DNA from: Mucilaginibacter rubeus | GTDB lineage: Bacteria > Bacteroidota > Bacteroidia > Sphingobacteriales > Sphingobacteriaceae | Direction: 5' to 3' | Length of the DNA stretch: 64,000 bases | NCBI RefSeq assembly: GCF_014643835.1 | Contig: NZ_BMKD01000001.1 | Span: forward strand, 806,001 to 870,000 | Shown: positions 228 to 5,214 of the stretch, piece by piece | How the letters are laid out: each line of letters opens with the position of its first letter | Numbering within the stretch: position 1 is the first letter of the stretch | Translations under genes and position numbers: made by a program | Notes under the pieces: model-generated | The model's database searches: none | What the model was told of the DNA's origin: nothing | What the model saw: only the letters and a program-made list of their open reading frames with translations

Positions 228-634
228 AATTATATCCTATCGTATGTAACCTGAATGCGTTTGTTGTGTGAACGAAATCAGCTTATCTCATGAACAAAAA
301 AAACGGCCGATACAGTTGCTGTTTGAATAAAGTAGATAATCCTAAAAAGATCATAACTGAACTGGATAAATAGGGAAGCCGAATTGTGCAAACACTTACC
401 AACAATTATATATATCCACCTGTTAGCCGGCTTGCACAAGCAAGCCGGCTAACGGTCATTAAAAGCATAAATTATCCAGCCTCACACCACCTGTCTGGTA
501 CAAGTTTAAAACGAGGGAACCTCTGGTTTTTGCGCAAAATTACGTATGAAAATACCGTATTTTAACGGATTGATATTTGGCCGATTGCTTTGTAAATTGG
601 GAAACATTTTTATGTCTGTTAAACCAGCAACCTT
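228..634. other. Intergenic region with one strong inverted repeat
   Basis: About 400 bases separate the DoxX-like fragment from the three-gene operon. The only clear structure is the 13-bp inverted repeat at 422-453. No convincing promoter of the TTTG/TAnnTTTG type was found close to 635. A 27-codon frame at 290-373 has no supporting feature. Confidence 0.6.
422..453. repeat. Perfect 13-bp inverted repeat (hairpin)
   Basis: The arms gttagccggcttg (422-434) and caagccggctaac (441-453) are perfect complements around the 6-nt loop cacaag. No T-run follows on either strand, so it is not a classical intrinsic terminator. It may be a dispersed repeat or a transcript-stabilising hairpin after the DoxX-like gene. 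Confidence 0.7.
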
Positions 635-1690
635 ATGTTTAATTCCCCAATTATCGATCTTGCGCTCACGCTGTCGTTCACCTATTTTTCGCTCAGTCTA
701 ACTGTTAGCACAATTCATGAGTATCTATCCGCTCTGCTTAATAAGCGGGGAGAGTATCTGAAAAATGCTATTGACTGTTTACTTTTTGACCAGGACTGGA
801 AAAAAATAGCTGAAAAGCTTTATAACAATCCGAACATTACATCTTTAAAAAAGGATTTAAACAGTTTGCCATCATATATCCCAGCGGGCAATTTTGCCGC
901 GGCTTTAATGGATCAGTTTAAAGACGATAAAAATATTATCCTTGATATGAATAAGATCAGGGACGTTTTAACAGATGATGGAATAGCGGCACAGGTTGGT
1001 ATCTCTGCCGGTATCAGGAAACTTCTTCTTAATTTTTATGAACGCGCCCAGGGCGATCTTCAGAGTTTTCAAAAACAGATCGAAACATTTTATAATTCGG
1101 CCATGGACAGGGCCTCGGGAGTTTATAAACGATCGTCTCAGCTTATTGTATTTATTATTTCGGTGGTAATCTGTGCCTCCTTGAATGTTGATACCATAAA
1201 TATTGTGAACAAGCTTTGGGGTAACCAGGAAGCACTGAAACATACAGCCGATAATTTACAAACCGTAGTTAAACAAGTAAACGAAAAAGGATATAATCCT
1301 AAAACTGATACGATAAAGTTTGAAGCCAGCAAAGTAACGGTTATTAAAAACATACCTGCCGATACAAGTAAAAACGCACCTAACGGAAAAAAAGTCGCCC
1401 AGCAAATCAGCACAGTTAGTACGTTTCTGGTAAGCTCTGGTATTCCTGTAGGTTGGACGGCACAAAATACTCCAGATTTGAAGGGTAAAACATTCTGCCA
1501 AAGCCTTTTGTCCCTTTTAATCAAGATAACGGGTTTATTATTAACAGCTATCGCTTTAATGTTAGGCGCTCCCTTTTGGTTCGATTTGATCAATAAAATT
1601 GTAAGTTTACGTGCGGCAGGCAAAAAGCCTGAAGAAGAAGCAACCACACCAACTAAGAATACCACCGTAACCGTAAAACCAGTAGGCTAA
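635..1690 (+). CDS. Inner-membrane protein, first gene of protease operon
   Basis: This 351-residue protein has three predicted membrane segments, at about residues 8-28, 169-187 and 289-308. Between the first two lies a helical, probably cytoplasmic domain of about 130 residues. A charged segment with SGVYKRSSQ immediately precedes the second helix. The third helix runs into a conserved-looking motif GAPFWFDL (about 311-318) followed by NKIVSLRAAGKKP, a signature I have seen in uncharacterised bacterial membrane proteins of this architecture. The C-terminus is low-complexity and Thr/Lys rich. Its stop overlaps the start of the subtilase by one base (TAATG), so the two are probably translationally coupled. 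No function is known; an anchor or scaffold for the protease is an inference from context. Confidence 0.85.
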   Translation: MFNSPIIDLALTLSFTYFSLSLTVSTIHEYLSALLNKRGEYLKNAIDCLLFDQDWKKIAEKLYNNPNITSLKKDLNSLPSYIPAGNFAAALMDQFKDDKNIILDMNKIRDVLTDDGIAAQVGISAGIRKLLLNFYERAQGDLQSFQKQIETFYNSAMDRASGVYKRSSQLIVFIISVVICASLNVDTINIVNKLWGNQEALKHTADNLQTVVKQVNEKGYNPKTDTIKFEASKVTVIKNIPADTSKNAPNGKKVAQQISTVSTFLVSSGIPVGWTAQNTPDLKGKTFCQSLLSLLIKITGLLLTAIALMLGAPFWFDLINKIVSLRAAGKKPEEEATTPTKNTTVTVKPVG

Positions 1691-2790
1691 TGCGTATTAA
1701 AGTAACCAAGCTGCTCAATACCAGGGTAGGAGGCGCTCATACAACCTATCAAACCGGTGCTGTAAGAGAGCCGGGTGACGAGATAGAAGTAACGGGTACT
1801 GTGCAGGGAGAGGAACTTGATGGAAACAATACCTGGTATAAAGTGGGTGACGATGCTAATAGTCATTATTGGAGCGGCGGGGCCGAACAAATAGATGGCG
1901 TCGGGAGCAATTATCAGCAATGGATGATTGACTTGAACCTGCCGGAGATTTGGGGCCGGTATGCAGGTACAGGCGTTGGTGTTGCTGTGGTTGACACCGG
2001 TATTGCGCCAGGCATAACAGACCTGTTTTATAATCAGAGTAAGTATTATGTTTATGGCGATAATGTTGAGATAAAAGACAACGCCGGTCATGGTACATTT
2101 TGTGCTTCCCTTGTTGGGCTACGGAATACCAGCGGCAACTATGTCGGTGTGGCTCCGGGATGTAATTTATTCGCCTGTAAAATATCCGAAAAAAGAACAT
2201 TTGAAAACACGGAGAGAGATGCCCAAAGATATGCTGACGCGATTAATTGGTGTGCAAAAAAAACTGATATTCATATAGTGTCAATAAGTTGGTCGTCAGG
2301 TATAAGTAATGCGGCTACTCTAAGTTTAATTCAGGAGGCTATAAACAATGCCGTAGCTAACAATAAAATAATTGTTTGTTCTATCGGAAATTCGATAGTA
2401 TTTGGAGATACAAGTAAATATTATCCGGCCTGTTTGAAAAATACAATCGGGGTCGGCATGGTTCCGGATAAGGAGAATGGCTATCCTTGTATAAATGAGT
2501 TCCTGTCGCTGGTGATCAATGGCTCGCAAATAAAATCATATGATCAGAATAACGAATTGATAGCTGATAGCGGGAGTAGTTTTGCGACGGCTATTACATC
2601 GGGCATAATTGCGCTGATGATTCAAAAAATGAATTTTAGTTATTCATTTGCTACGATCATTGAAAAATTGGCGGCTATGACGCAGAAAACAACCTTCATT
2701 ATAACCGAAGATGGAAACCCGCCAGCATCCTTCGATCTTCCACTGCTAAAACCCGAACTTTTATTGAATTTTTTTAATGATGTTGTATGA
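1690..2790 (+). CDS. Subtilisin-like (S8) serine peptidase with N-terminal SH3-like domain
   Basis: This 366-residue protein has the full S8 catalytic set: Asp102 in VAVVDTGIAPG, His134 in AGHGTFCAS, oxyanion Asn234 in SIGNS and Ser297 in GSSFAT. Residues 1-65 form a beta-rich segment (GDEIEVTG, NNTWYKV, HYWSGG) resembling a bacterial SH3 domain, as used for peptide or cell-wall binding. There is no signal peptide or membrane helix, which is unusual because most subtilases are secreted zymogens with an I9 propeptide. The start overlaps the upstream stop by one base and the stop overlaps the next start (ATGA), so it sits in the middle of an operon. Active protease is well supported by the motifs; substrate and cellular role are unknown. 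Confidence 0.92.
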   Translation: MRIKVTKLLNTRVGGAHTTYQTGAVREPGDEIEVTGTVQGEELDGNNTWYKVGDDANSHYWSGGAEQIDGVGSNYQQWMIDLNLPEIWGRYAGTGVGVAVVDTGIAPGITDLFYNQSKYYVYGDNVEIKDNAGHGTFCASLVGLRNTSGNYVGVAPGCNLFACKISEKRTFENTERDAQRYADAINWCAKKTDIHIVSISWSSGISNAATLSLIQEAINNAVANNKIIVCSIGNSIVFGDTSKYYPACLKNTIGVGMVPDKENGYPCINEFLSLVINGSQIKSYDQNNELIADSGSSFATAITSGIIALMIQKMNFSYSFATIIEKLAAMTQKTTFIITEDGNPPASFDLPLLKPELLLNFFNDVV

Positions 2791-4937
2791 AATATAAATA
2801 CGCCCCCCTTTTTTTGTTCTTGCTTCTGTCTTGCAAAATGTTTGCACAACAACCCGAAAGGCGCGTTTTTTATGATGTGTTATATTTGAAAAGCCTTTAC
2901 GACAAAGACGGGAAAATAAGGATCAGCCCGCAAAATAAGCCGCTGTTTGCTTATTATTTTAATCTCAAGAACACCACTAATGTAGATACTGTTATCAAGA
3001 AAAACCCTTTTTTTAATTTGAACGGGATTTATGAAGCTGGCGGTGCAAGCGGAGGGACAATACCCAGCCCATCCGGATTACTACAATCCATAGGCTCACT
3101 TGATGTTACCAATCTTGCCGACGGTCTTGCAAAGTTTTTAGTGGAACGAACAAAGCAGGAACTTTCCACTGCCTTTTTTTCACGGTTTAAAAAGGAGCTG
3201 GATAGTACCAGGCAGTTGCAGTTATTATTTCCGGTTACTTACAAATCACTTACAGCTATAGATGTTGAGATCTATAATTACGCCGCCTATACAGATTTGC
3301 TGCGGGAGTCATTTCAGAAAGACCTGGCACTATTACTTCCCAATGTTTCCAATTTGATTGACGACCCGTGCATGGATCAATTGTTTGCTGCCATGCCCCA
3401 CGTCAGGATAATCTTCATCGATGCCTTGTATATAGCCAACGAGTTTCATGAGGGTTCGCATCCGGGGGATATTTTTCATAACTACCTGGTTAATAAAGCA
3501 GGCAATGGCACCTTAAAGCTTGTAAATGAAAATGTATATCCGGCATTGCAAGCTTTTGATCTTTTTTCACAATCATTACGGTCAAATCAGAGAGATAAAT
3601 ACTGGGTCGATGCCGATTCGGCGAAGATGCTGTTTAGTAACCCTGTAACTTTCCAAATCTACCTTGGTTTGCTTTATCAGCAATTGGAAAAAAAAGACAT
3701 TAATTTTAAAGAGGGGTCAATGAAGCAGTTTCTGAAAGATCGTAGTGGTGACTTTTTAAAGTTTGAGGAAATTTATCAGAGTTATAACATTGAATTTATC
3801 CAAAAAGCAACAATAGCAAACAGGTATTTCATTAATTTAAAGCAACTTCAGCAAAAAGGTGAAAATACTTTTAATTACCAGGATTATTACGCGCTTTATA
3901 ATTCATCACTTAATCTTTTTGAGCAATTATTGAAATCACCATTGCTTTTAAATGTCGACCCGGCCAATATTACTATACCAATGATTGACCGGAAAGACAC
4001 AAAGATTGATCAGTACCTGTCATCAGCCAGGAGTCTTGGCAACGTTTACATTGATGTTTACGAAAAACAGTACCCATCGGCCATAGTTGAGCTTAGTGGC
4101 GTTTACGATAACCTGTTTATTAATAAAGTCGTTACTAACCCAATAAAACAGGATTTAGTTAGAAATCTTGCAGACAAAAAAGCAGAATATGATAAACTGC
4201 AGGATGCAGTCGTCAAGACTGCCATAAAGAAAGAAATAAATGAACTTGAAGCGAAAATTGCAGCGTTCACCGAGTGGCCGGCAATAAATAAAATGTTTAT
4301 TAAATATGCCAATTTTGCCGCTGAGGTATCAAAAGCGAAAAACAGCGACGAAGTAAAAAATGCTATTGAAGCAATTGCTTTACCGGTAGGCAGCTCAACC
4401 GTTAAACGCGAGGCTATTTTTAATGTCGCTCTAAACGCCTATGTTGGCCCTTATGTAGGTAAAGAAAAAGTGCACGGCATTGATGAAAAGTATAAAGGCA
4501 CATACGGGCTCTCAGCACCGGTAGGAATTTCATTTAGCTGGGGGCACCGTTTATTATTTGTTCCTACTGGCGATAAAAAATGGTCGACTTCTGTTTTTGT
4601 TTCTTTAATTGATATCGGCGCACTTGCTTCATACCGTTTTACATCCGGAAGTACCCCGGTAGCAAAAGATACCAGCGCCACTGTAGCGCAGGTGCCTAAA
4701 ATTGAGCTGAAGAATATCATAAGCCCAGGTTTGTTTTTATCTGTAGGCATACCATCCACGCCAATCTCAATTTCGGGTGGTTTCCAGGTTGCGCCAAATT
4801 TGCGTAGCGTTAGTTTAACAGGAGCCAATAAAGATGTGATAACTAACACTTACGGCGATAATAAGTTATATACACGTTGGTCGGTGGGGGTTTTAGTTGA
4901 TATACCGATACTCAATTTGTTTACTAAAGGACGTTAA
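2787..4937 (+). CDS. Large exported protein of protease operon, possible C-terminal beta-barrel
   Basis: This 716-residue protein starts with a signal peptide (MKYKYAPLFLFLLLSCKMFAQ). Cleavage could follow FAQ; Cys16 in LLLSC could alternatively be a lipobox. Residues about 120-540 are mostly helical, with a charged coiled-coil-like stretch near 460-515 (DKKAEYDKLQDAV, INELEAKIAAF). From about 545 the sequence becomes beta-rich with alternating hydrophobic and aromatic residues (YVGPYVG, GISFSWGHRLLF, VFVSLIDIGALASYRF) to the end, like an outer-membrane barrel or surface domain. It overlaps the subtilase stop by four bases. I do not recognise the family. The context suggests the envelope-facing part of a system with the membrane protein and the protease. 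Confidence 0.8.
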   Translation: MKYKYAPLFLFLLLSCKMFAQQPERRVFYDVLYLKSLYDKDGKIRISPQNKPLFAYYFNLKNTTNVDTVIKKNPFFNLNGIYEAGGASGGTIPSPSGLLQSIGSLDVTNLADGLAKFLVERTKQELSTAFFSRFKKELDSTRQLQLLFPVTYKSLTAIDVEIYNYAAYTDLLRESFQKDLALLLPNVSNLIDDPCMDQLFAAMPHVRIIFIDALYIANEFHEGSHPGDIFHNYLVNKAGNGTLKLVNENVYPALQAFDLFSQSLRSNQRDKYWVDADSAKMLFSNPVTFQIYLGLLYQQLEKKDINFKEGSMKQFLKDRSGDFLKFEEIYQSYNIEFIQKATIANRYFINLKQLQQKGENTFNYQDYYALYNSSLNLFEQLLKSPLLLNVDPANITIPMIDRKDTKIDQYLSSARSLGNVYIDVYEKQYPSAIVELSGVYDNLFINKVVTNPIKQDLVRNLADKKAEYDKLQDAVVKTAIKKEINELEAKIAAFTEWPAINKMFIKYANFAAEVSKAKNSDEVKNAIEAIALPVGSSTVKREAIFNVALNAYVGPYVGKEKVHGIDEKYKGTYGLSAPVGISFSWGHRLLFVPTGDKKWSTSVFVSLIDIGALASYRFTSGSTPVAKDTSATVAQVPKIELKNIISPGLFLSVGIPSTPISISGGFQVAPNLRSVSLTGANKDVITNTYGDNKLYTRWSVGVLVDIPILNLFTKGR

Positions 4938-5214
4938 CAGATTTGATCAACGGTTCGTCGGCCAACGATAAATCGAGGGCGAAGGATGGCAGCGCCATTT
5001 ATAGCTTGAAATTGATAAAACTTTTACTGGAGTATCCTGTTCAGATAACGGTTCGGCGGCTGCCGCTCTTGCCGTGCATTATATTTAAAAGTTATTGCAT
5101 ATTGGGCTGGCATAATTAAAAAGATGATTTAACTTTAAGGCGTTCTGTTTTGATTATTTATTATCATATTTAAAACAAAACCGAATCTGATAAATTGAAA
5201 ATATACAACCACTT

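Follow-up and report, generated by a model that had tools for sequence, protein, structure and literature searches.

Phage lysis cassettes and type 10 secretion systems (T10SSs) share a logic of a membrane protein, a hydrolase without a signal peptide, and an envelope protein (PMC10847048). Here, we analyzed a 64,000-nucleotide stretch of the Mucilaginibacter rubeus contig NZ_BMKD01000001.1 (positions 806,001 to 870,000; hereafter the window), which contains an operon encoding a membrane protein (P1), an S8 subtilase without a signal peptide (P2), and an exported protein (P3). Like the T10SS and the holin-endolysin-spanin cassettes, this is a small operon that combines a membrane protein and an exported envelope protein with an enzyme that, in several relatives of the operon, is a signal-less peptidoglycan hydrolase, and in the window a subtilase. 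We tentatively read it as a modular envelope-breaching cassette with a new membrane component, and give this reading slightly less than even chances.

In such a cassette, P1 would be the constant inner-membrane part, and would recruit a signal-less hydrolase from the cytoplasm, which in the window is the SH3b-subtilase P2; for several members of the family, an SH3b-like adaptor would mediate this recruitment. Upon a trigger, P1 would let the hydrolase into the periplasm, where its targets would be peptidoglycan (for the amidase and lysozyme versions), envelope proteins (for the subtilase and papain versions), or phospholipids (for the patatin and Tle1 versions). P3, once exported, would deal with the last layer, acting within the outer membrane or beside it, and the outcome would be lysis or enzyme release.

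A recurrent operon with an undescribed membrane protein

The three open reading frames (ORFs) of the operon, which are mechanical calls rather than curated genes, all start with ATG. A first-pass annotation of the window had described them as an overlapping operon, and the junctions are indeed present as described: P1 and P2 overlap by 1 base (TAATG), and P2 and P3 by 4 bases (ATGA). The operon is a real, recurrent unit. Genes for a P1, an S8 subtilase, and a P3 were found in the same order and on the same strand in seven further genomes (G001, G025, G187, G273, G320, G418, and G519), which belong to six families of Bacteroidota (f1, f2, f4, f5, f23, and f26). In these genomes, the gene junctions lie between -20 and +38 bases; the exception is G519, with 93 bases from P1 to the S8 gene and an uncertain start of P3. 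A further gene is inserted between P1 and S8 in two cases, encoding a GH25 lysozyme in G273 and a GH46 enzyme in G025. The concern that the three genes might rarely be neighbors elsewhere is thus not borne out.

The window DNA is 95.7% identical to a contig of Mucilaginibacter gossypii over 7.5 kb. In two close relatives (G551 and G547), both flanks match the window, and the 4.6 kb that hold all three genes have no counterpart (Table 1). A clean insertion does not account for the difference, as most of a 462-aa gene that lies just upstream in G551 is absent from the window; its counterpart in G547 is a 467-aa ORF. The three genes are missing together in both relatives, and gain and loss are indistinguishable. 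More broadly, 30 of 395 sampled genomes of the phylum had a match to a P1 profile, and there were two carriers of P1 among the 19 listed members of the genus, the other one (G102) encoding P1 with an amidase.

Outside the Bacteroidota, P1 is known from records of a plasmid collection, including proteobacterial and cyanobacterial plasmids, and from one IMG/VR viral contig of unknown host (L100; L110 is the same contig). No further P1 or P3 was found among viral contigs, and P3 was not found in the plasmid collection. Nine of the 13 plasmid records with P1 were read, the others being those of Kovacikia, Nonomuraea, a second R. phaseoli, and Agrobacterium MA01. Plasmid-borne P1 adjoins an amidase gene in Caballeronia and in Hymenobacter; on two Rhizobium plasmids, its neighbor encodes a patatin in one case and a cell wall hydrolase in the other. 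Genes for vanadium-dependent haloperoxidases were seen near P1 on plasmids of Paracoccus, Rhizobium, and Agrobacterium (L079, L081, and L083).

As the first-pass annotation had claimed, P1 has three hydrophobic stretches and a GAPFWFDL motif near its end. In a 24-row alignment of the family, G311 and W315 of this motif are invariant, while P313, F314, and D317 are at least 90% conserved. Charges averaged over the alignment favor a topology with the N-terminus outside, residues 28-169 in the cytoplasm, residues 189-297 as a periplasmic loop, and the C-terminus in the cytoplasm.

No described family accounts for this protein in the searches that we ran. Window P1 had matches in Pfam and NCBIfam only at E>=0.037, none of them significant, and no Pfam family matched more than one of 24 P1 family members (best E 0.002). 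The P1 proteins of the window, L054, L080, and L100 matched 0 PHROG families at E<=0.01. Profiles of P1 and P3 gave only chance-level matches to PDB sequences (best E 0.12 and 0.045, respectively), and a known fold for either protein by sequence was rejected on these grounds. A phage origin of window P1 was rejected as well, with 0 of 50,697 phage records matched by tblastn. Full-text literature searches, which covered papers in part and cannot find an unnamed family, returned nothing recognizable as this operon. As far as these searches show, the P1 family is previously undescribed; a protein with three transmembrane (TM) helices and conserved Cys, Asp, and Asn residues that is named in PMC12419801 lies outside these comparisons.

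Table 1. Features of the P1-P2-P3 locus (positions in the window)
Feature	Position	Strand	Basis
P1, three-TM membrane protein, apparent constant component (351 aa)	635..1690	+	ORF, alignment, profile search, hydropathy
P1 TM1, residues 9-27	659..715	+	Family-averaged hydropathy
P1 TM2, residues 170-188	1142..1198	+	Family-averaged hydropathy
P1 TM3, residues 298-316	1526..1582	+	Family-averaged hydropathy
P1 GAPFWFDL motif, residues 311-318	1565..1588	+	Conserved in alignment A1
P2, signal-less S8 subtilase, Asp102/His134/Asn234/Ser297 (366 aa)	1690..2790	+	Pfam, motif positions
P2 SH3b-like N-terminal domain, residues 1-66; common to P1-linked GH25, GH19, GH46, and Amidase_2 proteins	1690..1887	+	Sequence comparison
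P3, exported protein (716 aa)	2787..4937	+	ORF, profile search, hydropathy
P3 C-terminal domain, residues 528-716; predicted beta-rich from its pattern; also in more distant exported proteins	4368..4934	+	
P1-P2-P3 stretch, no counterpart in two close relatives with matching flanks (L111, L112)	462..5086	.	

Exchange of the enzymes beside P1

P1 looks like the constant part of the cassette and the enzyme like the interchangeable one, because the P1 family adjoins amidases, lysozyme-type enzymes, a CHAP enzyme, or phospholipases in related loci. With an operon limit of 120 bases, the enzymes encoded with P1 were Amidase_2 (L054, L059, L076, L080, L088, and L093), CHAP (L078, L085, and L098), GH25 (L069), GH46 (L053), GH19 (L056, below the Pfam cut-off), papain (L085), patatin (L058), Tle1 (L055), and amidohydrolase proteins (L057 and L065), in addition to S8 subtilases. 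Partners at wider gaps were S8 (L064), patatin (L086), GH19 (L089), and papain (L063). The enzyme of the window is a subtilase, and a signal-less peptidoglycan hydrolase is encoded in the P1 operons of L053, L054, L056, L059, L069, L080, L085, and L088. The papain-family proteases beside P1 in L085 (8558-9544) and L063 (8566-9480), from distant families, are 53% identical.

Among 72 operon partners, Pfam identified 7 Peptidase_S8 and 6 Amidase_2 proteins. For 120 further genes from these loci, Pfam gave 202 families, and the 25 that are listed include neither of the two. Local profiles for these two families matched 13/72 operon partners and 3/437 other nearby genes (Fisher p=1.3e-9). For all nine enzyme profiles, the counts were 24/72 and 5/437, a comparison that is partly circular, as the seeds came from these loci; independent support for the enrichment comes from Pfam, with a background table that shows 25 of the 202 families. 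All five background enzyme matches were also in P1 loci, some of them just past the operon limit.

Two of the partners, one amidase and one GH25 protein, match phage endolysin families, which is a further likeness to the T10SS: the amidase of L054 matched the endolysin family phrog_880 (E=1e-55) and the GH25 protein of L069 matched phrog_291 (E=3e-39), while the P1-linked GH46 protein had no PHROG match. The enzymes also lack signal-like N-termini. In 44 hand-picked proteins, the maximal N-terminal 10-residue hydropathy was at most 1.75 in all 28 enzymes, at least 2.34 in all seven P3 proteins, and at least 1.92 in all nine presumed exported partners, which had been chosen for looking exported and are separated from the enzymes by a narrow margin (1.75 vs 1.92). 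Since signal-less peptidoglycan hydrolases must cross the inner membrane to act, and since the partners resemble endolysins, these data argue for a holin-endolysin-like reading.

In a 48-row tree of P1, in which several branches are long and unsure, the P1 of L056 (GH19, a weak match) and that of L071 (SH3b-S8 with P3) are sisters with support of 100/99. A clade of P1 proteins encoded with amidases (L054, L076, and L080; 100/100) brings together plasmids of Hymenobacter and Caballeronia with a genome from the genus of the window, and thereby points to transfer between phyla.

The enzyme exchange bears on the first-pass suggestion that the protease processes a target at the inner membrane and reports to the surface. 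A version of this, in which P2 would cleave P1 or P3 for gasdermin-like activation or envelope signaling, is favored by the gene order, as the protease gene lies between those of its two potential substrates in the window and seven further loci. Bacterial gasdermin-protease pairs likewise have a membrane-acting protein encoded beside a protease, but P1 has multiple TM helices and often has a partner other than a protease. As the P1 family also stands beside non-proteases, proteolysis cannot be the general activating step, and we consider this account improbable. The earlier proposal of an undescribed system stands in part: the operon is real, recurrent, and unmatched to a described system, but processing of an inner-membrane target by a protease is not supported as its general rule. 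For the window, the protease is plausibly an effector, as had been proposed, and may serve self-killing.

The range of enzymes (Tle1, patatin, amidases, and lysozymes) also resembles antibacterial effector sets and overlaps with the repertoire of type VI secretion system (T6SS) effectors of the Tle1, amidase, and lysozyme types. P1 might thus be a dedicated exporter, or an immunity protein, for hydrolases directed against competitors or prey, to which the export of P3 would be suited. We deem such an outward weapon or digestive export distinctly unlikely. No recurrent immunity-like gene was noticed in P1 loci, though no search was aimed at one, and the T6SS sheath protein VipB was found in only 1/39 P1 genomes, vs 3/118 in a phylum sample, although divergent T6SS subtypes could be missed. 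A T6SS effector cassette as the general partner was rejected on this count. The sheath counts cover 39 of 41 P1 genomes (G022 and G336, with partial matches, being the other two), and the 118-genome sample includes some P1 genomes and is not family-matched.

A link to contractile injection systems, with P1 as membrane partner or the enzymes as cargo of a phage-tail-like machine, would fit two genomes of f17 (G355 and G374; L062 and L063), in which a few genes separate P1 from a sheath match. Sheath matches at E<=0.001 were present in 18/39 P1 genomes vs 28/118 of the phylum sample (p=0.014), but above the curated cut-off the difference disappeared (8/39 vs 21/118, p=0.81). Moreover, 21/39 P1 genomes had no sheath match, and a sheath near P1 occurred in only 2/39. 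With the enrichment weak and dependent on the threshold, we did not adopt a dependence on these machines, and regard the link as very improbable.

The subtilase P2 and a shared SH3b-like domain

P2 is a Pfam Peptidase_S8 protein (PF00082, E=1.5e-28) with Asp, His, and Ser motifs, and has neither a signal-like N-terminus nor a TM stretch by hydropathy, which agrees with its annotation as an Asp/His/Ser protease without a signal peptide. Since it does not look secreted, it is also not readily explained as a known secreted enzyme among chance neighbors. Residues Asp102, His134, Asn234, and Ser297 are located in the subtilase motifs, and we presume that they have the corresponding catalytic roles. 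Its best NCBIfam match was TIGR03921 (E=4e-31), the family of the mycosins, subtilases of type VII secretion, but the score of 108.4 bits is far from the cut-off of 278.75, and the absence of a signal-like N-terminus and a TM stretch sets P2 apart from them.

Residues 1-66 of P2 form an SH3b-like domain that the first-pass annotation had missed, with conserved Arg, Trp, Asp, and Trp residues and a Pfam SH3_3 match below the cut-off of that family (E=0.06). The same kind of domain is fused to S8, GH25, GH19, and GH46 enzymes, and, at the C-terminus, to Amidase_2. A search of 247 phylum genomes (E<=0.001) and, in a second draw that overlaps the first, of 151 family genomes (E<=0.01) yielded nine proteins with this domain, of which eight are encoded in P1 operons and seven are seeds or near-copies. 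The two new matches were an SH3b-Amidase_2 protein in G117 and the SH3b-GH46 protein of G025, whose gene stands between those of P1 and S8. Because two genomes (G026 and G205) have P1 but no P3 found in the operon, we infer that P1 is a likelier partner of the SH3b-like domain than P3.

Polymorphic-effector conflict systems, ternary and other, likewise have one component that stays constant while the effector enzymes, linked through a shared domain, can be exchanged, and swappable effectors occur in known conflict systems. P1 could be a membrane sensor that holds a cytoplasmic effector inactive and frees it upon phage attack or envelope stress, which would kill the cell, with lysis as defense. 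The exchangeable enzymes, the patchy presence of P1, and the joint absence of the three genes in relatives would suit this account. In addition, P2 bears a weak likeness to the PADLOC models of IetS (2.2e-6) and of a subtilase (2.4e-12), although against the NCBIfam IetS model it scored 20.4 bits, with a cut-off of 900, and so does not qualify as part of an IetAS system. The operons with Tle1 and patatin contain large proteins of 1340 and 1352 aa (L055:10558-14577 and L058:11321-15376), which are 49% identical and have around 11 TM stretches. One of these has weak Cache-like and nSTAND1 (E=0.014) matches, and a degenerate P-loop can be read in both loci; a role as sensor or regulator is possible. 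On the other hand, window P1 and window P3 matched no PADLOC model at E<=1, the effectors of P1 cassettes include endolysin-like envelope hydrolases, and peptidoglycan hydrolases cannot act in the cytoplasm unless a membrane passage is added. Overall, we judge a defense or suicide system to be rather unlikely.

P3 and the reach of the cassette

P3 has a signal-peptide-like N-terminus by hydropathy, so that its annotation as an exported protein holds; the C-terminal barrel that had been proposed with it, and a location in the outer membrane, are suggested by the sequence pattern. P3 has no Pfam match at E<=1 and no PHROG match at E<=0.01, and thus does not qualify as a spanin. Spanins are, moreover, far smaller than P3. 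A P3 profile matched 17 genomes of the 395-genome phylum sample. All seven strong matches (>=373 bits) were in P1 genomes, as was one of the ten weaker ones (<=323 bits; G336). The enzyme beside a strong P3 is a subtilase in six of the seven; the seventh (G398) has the order papain - P1 - P3 - CHAP.

Several observations weigh against an envelope-breaching cassette. P1 matched no known holin family in the PHROG and Pfam scans above, and classical holins are smaller; it also differs from the T10SS pattern in its large soluble parts, and in the presence of proteases and phospholipases among the cassette enzymes. In the phylum sample, only 7/30 genomes with P1 had P3 proper, and an outer-membrane partner like P3 is therefore not a general feature. 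The haloperoxidase/PAP2, amidohydrolase, and DUF5675 partners show no obvious fit to envelope attack, and two of the nine plasmid regions (Vitreoscilla and Nostoc) have P1 without a hydrolase in the operon. Around 0.5 kb downstream of a P1-amidohydrolase pair lies the gene of L065_9, an S8 protease that carries a Por secretion tail and is secreted in the conventional way, an exception among the otherwise signal-less enzymes. The SH3b-Amidase_2 protein of G117 (L129:287-1651) is encoded without a recognized P1, beside an unrelated small three-TM protein. Finally, the support consists of the gene order, of enzymes that change between loci and have no signal-like N-termini, of a domain common to several of them, and of the joint presence or absence of the genes; recruitment, translocation, the trigger, the place of P3, and the outcome are inferred.

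In the same vein, 24 of 44 P1 loci had none of the listed enzymes in the operon, a count that drops near-duplicate or window copies (WIN, L083, L090, L063, and L060) and loci in which the ORF caller missed P1 (L053, L082, and L099). P1 may therefore act alone, or with distant or unknown partners. This count would also fit a grouping of chance neighbors, but such an explanation is hardly credible in view of the gene order kept in six families, the overlapping junctions, the partner enrichment (p=1.3e-9), and the location of eight of nine SH3b proteins in P1 operons.

A bolder extension of the cassette reading, which we find doubtful but within reach, is a plug-and-play system that spans phyla, with the P1 family as its universal gate and docking platform. 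Any envelope hydrolase that acquires an adaptor (SH3b-like or another wall-binding module) would be picked up in the cytoplasm and conveyed across the inner membrane, with lysins, proteases, and lipases interchangeable for programmed lysis or protein release. If the cassette reading itself is right, an unnamed membrane component would join the few exit routes of signal-less lysins, beyond those of phages and the T10SS, in a route that covers Bacteroidota, Pseudomonadota, and Cyanobacteriota. The orphan lysozymes, amidases, and subtilases that such genomes encode as cytoplasmic proteins could then be accounted for, and the GAPFWFD protein would be a marker for finding more cassettes. The SH3b-like domain would then be a natural adaptor that may tie unrelated enzymes to one membrane platform.

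The small three-TM protein at L129 had no Pfam match (E<=0.1) and no PHROG match (E<=0.01); for enzymes such as the SH3b-Amidase_2 protein beside it, it could be a second membrane partner in addition to P1. The C-terminal domain of P3 (around 173 positions) also terminates more distant exported proteins. One of these (L106:4242-8276) is encoded next to a secreted caspase-domain (C14) protein. A distant relative of P3 (L103:7280-13080; 323 bits) lies near genes that, as read from their N-termini, resemble type I restriction-modification genes. Another, in L105, lies upstream of a gene that we take to encode a related injection-system component.

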